Below, piece after piece: positions 14,680 to 16,068 of a stretch of DNA of 21,889 bases. The DNA is taken from positions 1 to 21,889 of the IMG/VR virus record IMGVR_UViG_3300046321_000081; one strand, written 5' to 3'. Both the position numbers and the translations under genes were made by a program. How positions within the stretch are numbered: position 1 is the first letter of the stretch; each line of letters begins with the position of its first letter. Source of the DNA: a virus. The notes below the pieces were generated by a model. The model ran no database searches. It was not told the DNA's origin and saw only the letters and a list, made by a program, of their open reading frames with translations.

Positions 14680-15007
14680 TTTGTTAGGCAGTATTGCTGG
14701 TAAATTGGCGGATGCTTACACGGCGCGCGAAACAGCCAAGACTGATTCGGACCGAATTGCGGCAGATGTTGCAATTAAGCAACTAGAAGCAAGGCAAGCG
14801 GTAGTGATTGCGGGCGGGCGATGGATTGCGCCAATTCAGGCCGCGTTTGCTGTTATGTTTTTGATTTATTACGGAAAACTTCTGATTTGGGATAAGGTTC
14901 TAGGGCTAGGTGTTACCGATGGATTATCGCCAAGTCTGGAAAATCTAGGCATGATTGTGATTTCTTTTATTTTCTTGCAGGCCGGGATTGACCGAGTGCG
15001 GCGGTAG
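14669..15007 (+). CDS. Holin of the GTA 3TM type
   Basis: The 112-residue protein starts MWFSLLGSIAGKLADAY. It has a charged helix around residues 18-42 (AKTDSDRIAADVAIKQLEARQ) and then hydrophobic segments at about 45-70 and 85-107 separated by IWDKVLGLGVTDGLSPS. This pattern, including the WDKVLG..VTD motif, is that of the 'holin of 3TMs, for gene-transfer release' family of alphaproteobacterial gene transfer agents and phages. I prefer the ATG at 14669 over the GTG at 14657. It would permeabilise the inner membrane for the endolysin. Confidence 0.8.
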   Translation: MWFSLLGSIAGKLADAYTARETAKTDSDRIAADVAIKQLEARQAVVIAGGRWIAPIQAAFAVMFLIYYGKLLIWDKVLGLGVTDGLSPSLENLGMIVISFIFLQAGIDRVRR

Positions 15008-15016
15008 TTCTATATG
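14987..15016 (+). promoter_or_regulatory. Possible promoter before the 35-residue gene and tRNA region
   Basis: TTGACC, an 18-nt G-rich spacer and TATATG lie at the end of the holin gene, 37 nt before the ATG at 15053. This would allow separate expression of the small peptide and the tRNAs. Match only. Confidence 0.35.
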
Positions 15017-15052: not shown

Positions 15053-15160
15053 ATGCCTATCGCTCTGATTATCATCTTGCTTGCTACCGCTGGGGCTGCT
15101 GTTGAAAGTGGTTATCCAAATGAAGCGGGTCGATCTGTTGCTGTAACTGCGACTGAGTGA
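15053..15160 (+). CDS. 35-residue hydrophobic peptide
   Basis: A short frame with a very strong GGAGGG site encodes MPIALIIILLATAGAAVESG, then a polar tail ending VAVTATE. The hydrophobic start could be a signal peptide or a single membrane anchor, with AGAA/V as a possible cleavage point. It is the last protein gene before the tRNA region. The unusual strength of its translation signal suggests real, high expression. No homologue is recognised. Confidence 0.6.
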   Translation: MPIALIIILLATAGAAVESGYPNEAGRSVAVTATE

Positions 15161-15197
15161 ATAAACAGGGGCGCGACTGTAACGCGCAACCAACTAT

Positions 15198-15325
15198 GAC
15201 TGCGGTGGCTGATAGGTTAGGCTAGTGGAAAGATTTCGGTCAGAACTATAGATATGGCCACGATTGAGCGCACCACGATGGGTAACGCCCCTTGTAAGCA
15301 GGTTCGATTCCTGCCCGCAGTCAAC
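15198..15325 (+). tRNA. Oversized tRNA-like element, isotype unresolved
   Basis: A perfect 8-bp acceptor-type stem (GACTGCGG at 15198-15205 with CCGCAGTC at 15315-15322) closes the element. A fully canonical T-arm, GCAGG-TTCGATT-CCTGC, ends just before the 3' strand. The interior is about 50 nt too long for a tRNA. It contains GTGG/CCAC pairing and a loop-like CTTGTAA (a Thr UGU anticodon loop) directly abutting the T-arm without a 3' anticodon stem. The 3' end reads CAACT after the stem, so CCA is not encoded. It may be a rearranged or intron-like tRNA or a decoy. Confidence 0.5.
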
Positions 15326-15337
15326 TAAATATCCGCC

Positions 15338-15404
15338 TTTGTGGCGGGTTGCTGAATATAGGGCCTAGCCCGCGACATCGCCTAAGCGGTGCGGCGATCC
15401 ACCA
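15338..15404 (+). ncRNA. Cluster of small hairpins ending in CCACCA
   Basis: Three short hairpins follow each other: ATCCGCC/GGCGGGT, GGGC/GCCC and CATCGC/GCGGTG. The segment ends GATCCACCA, like a tRNA 3' end, but no matching 5' acceptor strand is found. It is probably structured RNA within the tRNA transcript; nothing more can be said. Confidence 0.3.
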
Positions 15405-15484
15405 GAAACGCGGCCAGACAAAGCGCCATTTATCATGAATGGGTAATCGTGAAAACTTTTTGACCTGCGGGCAACCGCGTTTCT
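15404..15484 (+). ncRNA. tRNA-sized element with 10-bp terminal stem
   Basis: AGAAACGCGG at 15404-15413 pairs perfectly with CCGCGTTTCT at 15475-15484, enclosing 61 nt. At the position of an anticodon arm lies CCATT-TATCATG-AATGG, a 5-bp stem with a 7-nt loop whose centre reads TCA; the usual U33 is replaced by A. No canonical T-arm is present. It is either a degenerate tRNA or another structured RNA. Confidence 0.4.
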
Positions 15485-15518
15485 ACACTGCCCGATGACC
15501 GGGCGACAAAAAAGAATT

Positions 15519-15611
15519 GGAAGCCTTTCCCCACGGCGGACTGTAAATCCGTTGCTTTACCAAATAAGTGGGGGTAGTCAGCGTAAGGTGCATATCCTTG
15601 GGCTTCCACCA
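15519..15611 (+). tRNA. tRNA-Tyr(GTA)-like element lacking a D-arm
   Basis: The acceptor stem is perfect (GGAAGCC/GGCTTCC), with discriminator A and encoded CCA. The anticodon arm is GCGGA-CTGTAAA-TCCGT, anticodon GTA at 15543-15545. The T-stem TAAGG/CCTTG is kept, but the T-loop reads TGCATAT instead of TTCNANT. Only 10 nt lie between acceptor and anticodon stem, so there is no D-arm. Instead CCCCAC (15529-15534) can pair with GTGGGG (15568-15573) in the long variable region, enclosing the anticodon hairpin. Confidence 0.5.
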
Positions 15612-15616
15612 TTAAC

Positions 15617-15693
15617 GGGCCGCTAGTCCAACTGGTAGAGACATTTGCCTTAGAAGCATTGTGTTGTTGGTTCGAATCCAACGCGGCCTACCA
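15617..15693 (+). tRNA. tRNA-Leu(TAG), short variable region
   Basis: Acceptor GGGCCGC/GCGGCCT (one G-U), discriminator A and CCA encoded. The D-arm carries the GG pair, and the T-arm GTTGG-TTCGAAT-CCAAC is canonical. The anticodon loop is CTTAGAA with anticodon TAG at 15651-15653, reading CUA. The outer two pairs of the anticodon stem are mismatched. The variable region is about 5 nt, unlike normal bacterial tRNA-Leu. Confidence 0.75.
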
Positions 15694-15698
15694 AATTA

Positions 15699-15776
15699 CC
15701 CCGCCTAGCCCAAGTAGGTAGAGGCGTCGGACTTAAAATCCGAATGTTGCAGGTTCGAGTCCTGCGGTGGGGACCA
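15699..15776 (+). tRNA. tRNA-Leu(TAA), short variable region
   Basis: The cloverleaf is complete: acceptor CCCCGCC/GGTGGGG, D-stem GCC/GGC, anticodon arm TCGGA-CTTAAAA-TCCGA (anticodon TAA at 15734-15736, reading UUA), T-arm GCAGG-TTCGAGT-CCTGC, discriminator A and encoded CCA. The variable region is only 5 nt, though tRNA-Leu is normally class II. Confidence 0.88.
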
Positions 15777-15781
15777 ATATT

Positions 15782-15855
15782 GTCGGTGTAGTGTAGTGGT
15801 AACACGGCAGTCTCCAAAACTGCAATTATAGGTTCAATTCCTATCACCCTCGCCA
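15782..15855 (+). tRNA. tRNA-Trp(CCA)
   Basis: Anticodon arm GCAGT-CTCCAAA-ACTGC is perfect, with anticodon CCA at 15814-15816. The D-arm reads GTGTAGTGGTAACAC, the T-arm ATAGG-TTCAATT-CCTAT. The discriminator is G, as in bacterial tRNA-Trp, and CCA is encoded. The acceptor stem has two mismatches (positions 2-71 and 3-70). Confidence 0.82.
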
Positions 15856-15899
15856 AAGTCTCGCCGGATTAAAACCCGTCGCCTGAATGTTTACAGGAT

Positions 15900-15976
15900 A
15901 GCTAGGATACGCGGCCTAGTGAGCGGATTAGGAAGTATGCGCCTTATGGCGGCATAGCGGTAAAGCCCGCCTAGCT
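15900..15976 (+). ncRNA. tRNA-sized cloverleaf-like element
   Basis: AGCTAGG at 15900-15906 pairs with CCTAGCT at 15970-15976, 77 nt overall. Inside are CGC-GGCCTAGTGA-GCG (D-arm-like), the hairpin TATGC..GCATA at 15937-15956, and GCGG-TAAAGC-CCGC next to the 3' strand where a T-arm would be. No TTCNANT loop and no CCA are present. Confidence 0.4.
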
Positions 15977-15986
15977 TCTGCCATAG

Positions 15987-16033
15987 CCACGGCAAACAAA
16001 GTAACCGCTTGCGTGAAATAATAAAAGCCGTGG
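15987..16033 (+). ncRNA. Long stem-loop before the terminator
   Basis: CCACGGC and GCCGTGG form a perfect 7-bp stem around a 33-nt A-rich loop, immediately followed by the terminator hairpin. It may be the 3' trailer of the tRNA transcript. Confidence 0.35.
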
Positions 16034-16036
16034 TTT

Positions 16037-16068
16037 AGGCGTCCGCTTTTGGCGGGCGTCTTTTGTTT
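16037..16068 (+). terminator. Rho-independent terminator of the tRNA region
   Basis: GGCGTCCGC, loop TTTTG and GCGGGCGTC (two wobble pairs) are followed by TTTTGTTT. On the minus strand no U-run follows, so it works for the plus strand only. Confidence 0.75.

Follow-up and report, generated by a model that had tools for sequence, protein, structure and literature searches.

A tRNA-Tyr(GUA) with a variable-arm pseudoknot in place of the D-arm recurs in phages and Planctomycetota

The window analyzed in this work is a 21.9-kb virus record (IMGVR_UViG_3300046321_000081, positions 1 to 21,889), and it carries, within an array of structured RNAs, a gene for a tRNA-Tyr(GUA) that has no D-arm and whose 5' region is paired to the loop of its own variable arm. 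The same architecture, hereafter the H-type, is present in 26 viral loci, among them loci of SCYZ1, Rembedalsseter and Lyrsu03, which are cultivated phages of Pseudomonas. It also occurs in Planctomycetota, on 17 chromosomes or contigs, some of the contigs being longer than 1.9 Mb. A long variable arm with a stem is a normal feature of bacterial tRNA-Tyr, and outside mitochondria the D-arm is regarded as an invariable component of the elbow of a tRNA. A tRNA-Tyr found time and again with a variable-arm pseudoknot in that place would, as a working molecule, have a tRNA topology that is new; a search of the open-access literature turned up no account of a pseudoknotted tRNA of this kind.

The Tyr element occupies positions 15519..15611 (all the window features given here lie on the plus strand) and includes an encoded CCA. 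Its 5' part consists of the acceptor strand GGAAGCC, the dinucleotide TT, the sequence UCCCCAC (H5, 15528..15534), a single G, the anticodon arm GCGGA-CUGUAAA-UCCGU (15536..15552, read from the sequence and the alignment) and UGCU (V5, 15553..15556); its 3' part consists of UUACCAAAUAA, GUGGGGG (H3, 15568..15574), UAGUC, AGCG (V3, 15580..15583), the T-arm UAAGG-UGCAUAU-CCUUG, the acceptor strand GGCUUCC, A and CCA. H5 pairs with H3 to form helix H, which replaces the D-arm, and V5 pairs with V3 to form the variable-arm stem V; given that H3 sits in the variable-arm loop, H and V cross and form a pseudoknot. There is no D-stem in the window element, and in the H-type matches listed a D-stem of 3 bp or more is absent from the 5' segment (D score 0), which holds helix H instead. 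In the window V has just 4 bp, one of them G-U, and the T-loop, which departs from TTC, is aberrant, as it also is in the copy of a related phage (L010); with these two features the window copy could be less active.

The loci were first gathered through the Tyr anticodon stem and the motifs 'CAC' or 'TRGTC'. A scan of viral contigs with a 23-nt anticodon segment gave 14 loci, four of them without any ARAGORN tRNA-Tyr: L010 is genuinely related to the window phage, the Tyr elements of L008 and L013 have a different helix H (CCACAC/GUGUGG), and that of L016 is unusual in yet another way, lacking H. The set grew to 20 sequences through wider scans. BLAST with the window Tyr gene gave no match in named phages; the copy of a jumbo phage (L018) led to SCYZ1, and SCYZ1 as a query led to Rembedalsseter and Lyrsu01-03, E-values throughout being rough. 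Matches in Mammaliicoccus phi6255 and Aeromonas CC2 were discarded as ordinary tRNA-Tyr genes. The covariance-model run that the first-pass annotation had proposed proved discriminating: in all sets model R1 gives the H-type 62-97 bits (84 for the window; 72-84 for SCYZ1, Rembedalsseter and Lyrsu03), whereas no other tRNA scores above about 43; L154, the one weak outlier, has a shorter H and reaches 44 bits. ARAGORN reported none of the 27 H-type sequences of the main set; no feature is annotated at the site of the Tyr element in SCYZ1 or Rembedalsseter, and the annotation of Lyrsu03 gives only the tRNA-Pro that follows it. Since ARAGORN and Rfam do not report the H-type, phage and some bacterial genomes may seem to be without a tRNA-Tyr that they have.

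Unusual in another way is a second tRNA-Tyr type seen in the scans, whose D-stem has 5 bp (GTGCG/CGCAC) and whose D-loop has 6 nt (L020, L024, L026, L031, L035, L043 and similar loci); it is mostly missed by ARAGORN and usually adjoined by a tRNA-Ser(UGA). Likewise, the T4-like Citrobacter phage Merlin (L203, 580-661) has an unannotated tRNA-Tyr-like gene unreported by ARAGORN, which by R1 is not of the pseudoknot type.

Helix H is supported by covariation. In an alignment made from sequence only, six core pairs are standard in 20 of 20 sequences and three pairs have changed in a compensatory way; the score for covariation reaches 0.415, compared with 0.119 for shuffled and 0.05-0.15 for slid controls. 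With 27 sequences no gap-free cell of the six core pairs departs from standard pairing, and double changes occur at four pairs. The Pseudomonas phages, which were found by BLAST and not by structure, have the H helices CCUCAC/GUGAGG, CCCCAC/GUGGGG and CCUGUC/GACAGG. Stem V, which was left out of R1, is present in nearly every H-type sequence and covaries, its loop being engaged in H; its mean pairing score of 4.19 fell to 2.96 after permuting the V3 strands among sequences (0 of 10000 permutations reached it, p < 1e-4), and a thinned set of 21 sequences gave the same result. Across the 27 sequences the 7-bp acceptor is paired in 98% of cells and the T-arm (5 bp, 7 nt) in 84%, and such pairing figures, those of H included, are partly given by construction because the loci were chosen by Tyr motifs and H is inside the model. 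All 27 have the GUA anticodon and U33 in a loop of 7 nt (CUGUAAA in the window), partly by selection.

The architecture appears to be tied to tyrosine. An anticodon-blind scan of 1.81 Mb gave 33 matches, compared with none in reversed DNA; every CCA-bearing match without a D-arm was a tRNA-Tyr, and the Leu or Ser matches retain the D-stem and are ordinary, an absence from other isotypes that covers the 1271 ARAGORN-detected tRNAs of loci chosen by the Tyr motif. The identity elements of bacterial TyrRS, A73 and G1-C72 (PMC9976931), are kept: every one of the 27 sequences has A73 and C72, 26 have G1-C72, and CCA is often intact. In 25 of the 27 loci ARAGORN found no other tRNA-Tyr, though some of them hold 10-22 tRNAs. 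Isolated copies in L008, L013 and SCYZ1 have, 19-44 nt upstream, a TTGACA-17-TATAAT promoter that fits the sigma-70 consensus perfectly, a 12/12 match that is reached by 1.5% of random 120-nt stretches from the same loci; L206 and L205 have upstream matches of 10-11/12, and the window copy lies inside the array.

H-type genes are not confined to phages. A narrow-motif scan of GTDB genomes led to one Phycisphaerae MAG whose contig is cellular; a reading of the L200 contig as viral was rejected, its genes being cellular (BioY, kinase-TPR, carbohydrate phosphorylase). R1 matches were obtained in at least 8 of 298 genomes of the class of this MAG and at least 10 of 392 of its phylum, with one genome in both, these counts being lower bounds with 11-14 candidates scored per genome. 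In the Planctomycetota set the H covariation score is 0.565 versus 0.165 and the V permutation again gave 0 of 10000. The idea that the H-type is the sole tRNA-Tyr of these bacteria failed, as 16 of the 17 genomes have a canonical tRNA-Tyr as well.

Short-variable-loop tRNA-Leu genes (74-79 nt) are enriched beside the pseudoknotted tRNA-Tyr in both phages and Planctomycetota. Near the cellular H-type genes 30 of 34 tRNA-Leu are of 80 nt or less, and in the viral H-type loci 14 of 18, versus 19 of 73 in viral canonical-Tyr loci (Fisher p 8e-5 for this viral comparison, in which the loci are not independent); the two tRNA-Leu genes of the window are likewise short, 77 and 78 nt including CCA. 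We raise as a tentative possibility that phages and Planctomycetota have in common an overlooked tRNA class, in which the pseudoknotted tRNA-Tyr is linked to tRNA-Leu without a long variable arm, as a 'variable-arm-hidden' class II set that would be kept because nucleases directed at long variable arms do not see it.

The explanation that we favour, and to which we attach about even confidence, is that the gene encodes a tRNA-Tyr(GUA) that has a rearranged core and works, and that probably escapes nucleases attacking the variable arm, thereby sustaining the decoding of tyrosine codons during infection. In this molecule, positions about 10-16, which follow the acceptor, form helix H of 6-7 bp with the 3' side of the variable-arm loop; the H/V pseudoknot would probably stack beneath the anticodon stem in the place of the D-stem, and the linker after H (UGG; UAG in the window) may replace G18-G19 of the D-loop at the elbow. 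Charging by TyrRS is expected through A73, G1-C72 and the GUA anticodon. It has been reported that the PtuAB nucleases of Septu and retron-Eco7 deplete tRNA-Tyr through cuts in the variable arm, that Septu cuts E. coli tRNA-Tyr at C48/A49, and that the tRNA-Tyr of phage T5 is resistant owing to its distinctive variable loop (PMC13096335, PMC11555353). The tRNA-Tyr of T6 is itself cut by Septu (PMC13096335), hence not every phage tRNA-Tyr is resistant. With its variable arm tied up, the H-type would probably escape PtuAB, and a fold that locks the variable-arm loop in a helix is what such escape could look like. The canonical tRNA-Tyr that accompanies the variant in nearly all the Planctomycetota genomes speaks against this explanation. 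Given that both a predicted target, PtuAB, and cultivated phages are available, the shaping of phage tRNAs by defence nucleases becomes testable.

A less probable alternative, to which we nevertheless give real weight, is that the pseudoknotted tRNA-Tyr works in translation but owes its fold to something other than nucleases, the fold being a neutral solution that spread horizontally, or the RNA serving codon supply or a special partner, e.g. a tRNA-dependent enzyme. The second tRNA-Tyr on Planctomycetota chromosomes, placed beside short-arm tRNA-Leu, agrees with this alternative because an anti-defence role is not obvious there; however, the restriction to Tyr in the blind scan, Tyr being the one isoacceptor with a known variable-arm nuclease, and the strong dedicated promoters of isolated copies argue against it. 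It is unlikely that the RNA mimics tRNA-Tyr so as to act outside translation, binding a nuclease, TyrRS or a modification enzyme as a decoy or inhibitor. The noncanonical core, the aberrant T-loop of the window and L010, and the neighbouring tRNA-like elements without an anticodon arm would fit such a role, but the TyrRS identity elements, the T-arm and the anticodon loop are all conserved, and the Tyr slot of large arrays is filled by the H-type gene. The first-pass annotation had suggested either tRNA mimics, for instance decoys, or decay of an old array. From the first suggestion, a link with defences that attack tRNAs stays as the best lead, since the arm that is rearranged is the one cut by PtuAB, whereas a non-working mimic is hard to reconcile with an intact acceptor and with a gene that is the sole tRNA-Tyr in most arrays. 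Decay is very improbable for the Tyr element: the failure of ARAGORN and Rfam to recognize it would be expected from a decaying gene, but between the window and L010 it is 91% identical, compared with 65-74% for the neighbouring canonical tRNA-Leu genes and 53% for the clamp gene, and the compensatory changes in four helices plus V among the 27 sequences already contradict this reading. Neither lost pairing nor faster divergence was seen in it, and we conclude that it is a gene under selection.

Several known RNAs resemble the H-type in part. With canonical bacterial class II tRNA-Tyr(GUA) it shares the 7-bp acceptor, A73, G1-C72, the GUA in a 7-nt loop, the T-arm and the stem of the long variable arm, and it differs in having no D-arm and a variable-arm loop pseudoknotted to the 5' region. 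The T5 tRNA-Tyr is also phage-borne, with an altered variable loop and a strong phage promoter, as in some H-type copies; however, it is described as an ordinary tRNA-Tyr (PMC11555353, PMC13096335), whereas the H-type is pseudoknotted and its resistance to PtuAB is predicted. For phage tRNAs with changes against anticodon nucleases a structural change has also been proposed to serve defence evasion, in that case in the anticodon loop (PMC10264068) and not in the D and variable regions. Mitochondrial tRNAs without a D-arm and allo-tRNAs also depart from the cloverleaf, but the former have a flexible connector where the H-type has helix H, and the latter have altered acceptor/T lengths of 8/4 or 9/3 (PMC7609411), a layout not found in the H-type, which is 7/5; the review in question mentions neither pseudoknots nor phages. 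The tyrosylated tRNA-like structure of bromoviruses is likewise viral, carries identity elements for tyrosine and does not fold into a cloverleaf (PMC9976931); in contrast to the H-type, whose acceptor is an ordinary continuous helix, it is the 3' end of an RNA genome and not a tRNA for translation.

The array that surrounds the Tyr element contains exactly three canonical tRNAs according to ARAGORN and Rfam, in agreement with the first-pass annotation: tRNA-Leu(UAG) (15617..15693) and tRNA-Leu(UAA) (15699..15776), both with a short variable loop, and tRNA-Trp(CCA) (15782..15855), 85% identical to the gene of L185. Further structured elements, at 15198-15483, 15519-15611 and 15862-15982, were recognized by neither program, and for the odd elements of the window Rfam with relaxed thresholds returned only tRNA and matches at the level of chance. 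The single-sequence folding energies of the noncanonical elements are borderline at best (z about -1.4 to -1.9) and similar to those of real tRNAs, so they would not have proved these elements real; conservation and covariation in related phages do, bearing out the earlier claim that noncanonical tRNA-sized elements exist, with compensatory changes in H and V of the Tyr element and in the hairpins P1 and P2 described below. The relatives were found by alignment of the downstream metallophosphatase (a lysozyme-based search for them found none), and they carry the RNA array in the same slot, from the holin-like gene to the phosphatase, with different combinations of elements.

Element A (15198..15322) is tRNA-like, with an 8-bp acceptor (GACUGCGG/CCGCAGUC), a perfect canonical T-arm (GCAGG-UUCGAUU-CCUGC), an enlarged, unalignable core and no recognizable anticodon arm. 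Its acceptor and T-arm are nearly unchanged in L181, L194 and L185, and the core is replaced in the window; by eye, a hairpin resembling a D-arm (UGGC/GCCA against UGGU/ACCA) can be made out in the core of these three relatives, and a 7-nt anticodon arm cannot. Element B1 (hairpin P1, 15333..15413) has 17 of 20 positions paired around a 41-nt variable loop; across the window and seven related phages there are nine copies, which show 16-19 pairs at 19-20 positions, with compensatory changes in L185, L188 and L010. Element B2 (hairpin P2, 15405..15483), GAAACGCGG/CCGCGTTTC, has 8-11 bp in eight phages. Among the relatives examined, both hairpins are always paired and show compensatory changes, and because the strand GAAACGCGG belongs to P2 and to the outer part of P1 the outer pairings are mutually exclusive. 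The loops of P1 (40-94 nt) and of P2 differ between related phages; P1/P2 with exchanged loops could act as a switch, or as a frame in which interchangeable payloads are processed. An initial interpretation of B1 (15349-15403) as a tRNA-like RNA with a CCA end was withdrawn, given that L185 and L010 show the longer hairpin P1 running through the CCA. In L010 (1027-1125) and L188 (2778-2879) the B2 slot holds tRNA-Ser-like RNAs with acceptor-type stems of 10-11 bp and with D-loop-like and T-arm-like parts. Element E (15862..15982) is a conserved structured block with a minihelix-like fold at its end and 91% column identity with L181 and L183; no double compensatory change was found against these two, its strong sequence conservation being such that covariation cannot test its structure. 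Elements A, B1/B2 and E belong to a modular array common to related phages, with conserved ends or stems and exchanged cores, for which a mimicry or decoy role is possible.

A promoter-like TTGACC-17-TATATG with a weak -10 (14988..15016), read from the sequence, lies directly after the holin-like gene, and an intrinsic-terminator-like hairpin (16037..16061) marks the array end; TTGACA-like boxes occur at the site matching this promoter in L010, L182/L194, L188 and L186. The first gene before the array, and the first on its transcript, is a 35-aa membrane-peptide ORF with GGAGGG upstream (15053..15160), conserved and seen in L181, L182 and L183. It is followed by a leader hairpin, GCGCG-ACUGUAA-CGCGC (15163-15190), conserved in L182, L183, L185 and L194, whose loop resembles the Tyr anticodon loop displaced by one base. 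At the start of the record (8-181) there is an ORF of repeated SAYRR/LADCRS units, a short direct repeat.
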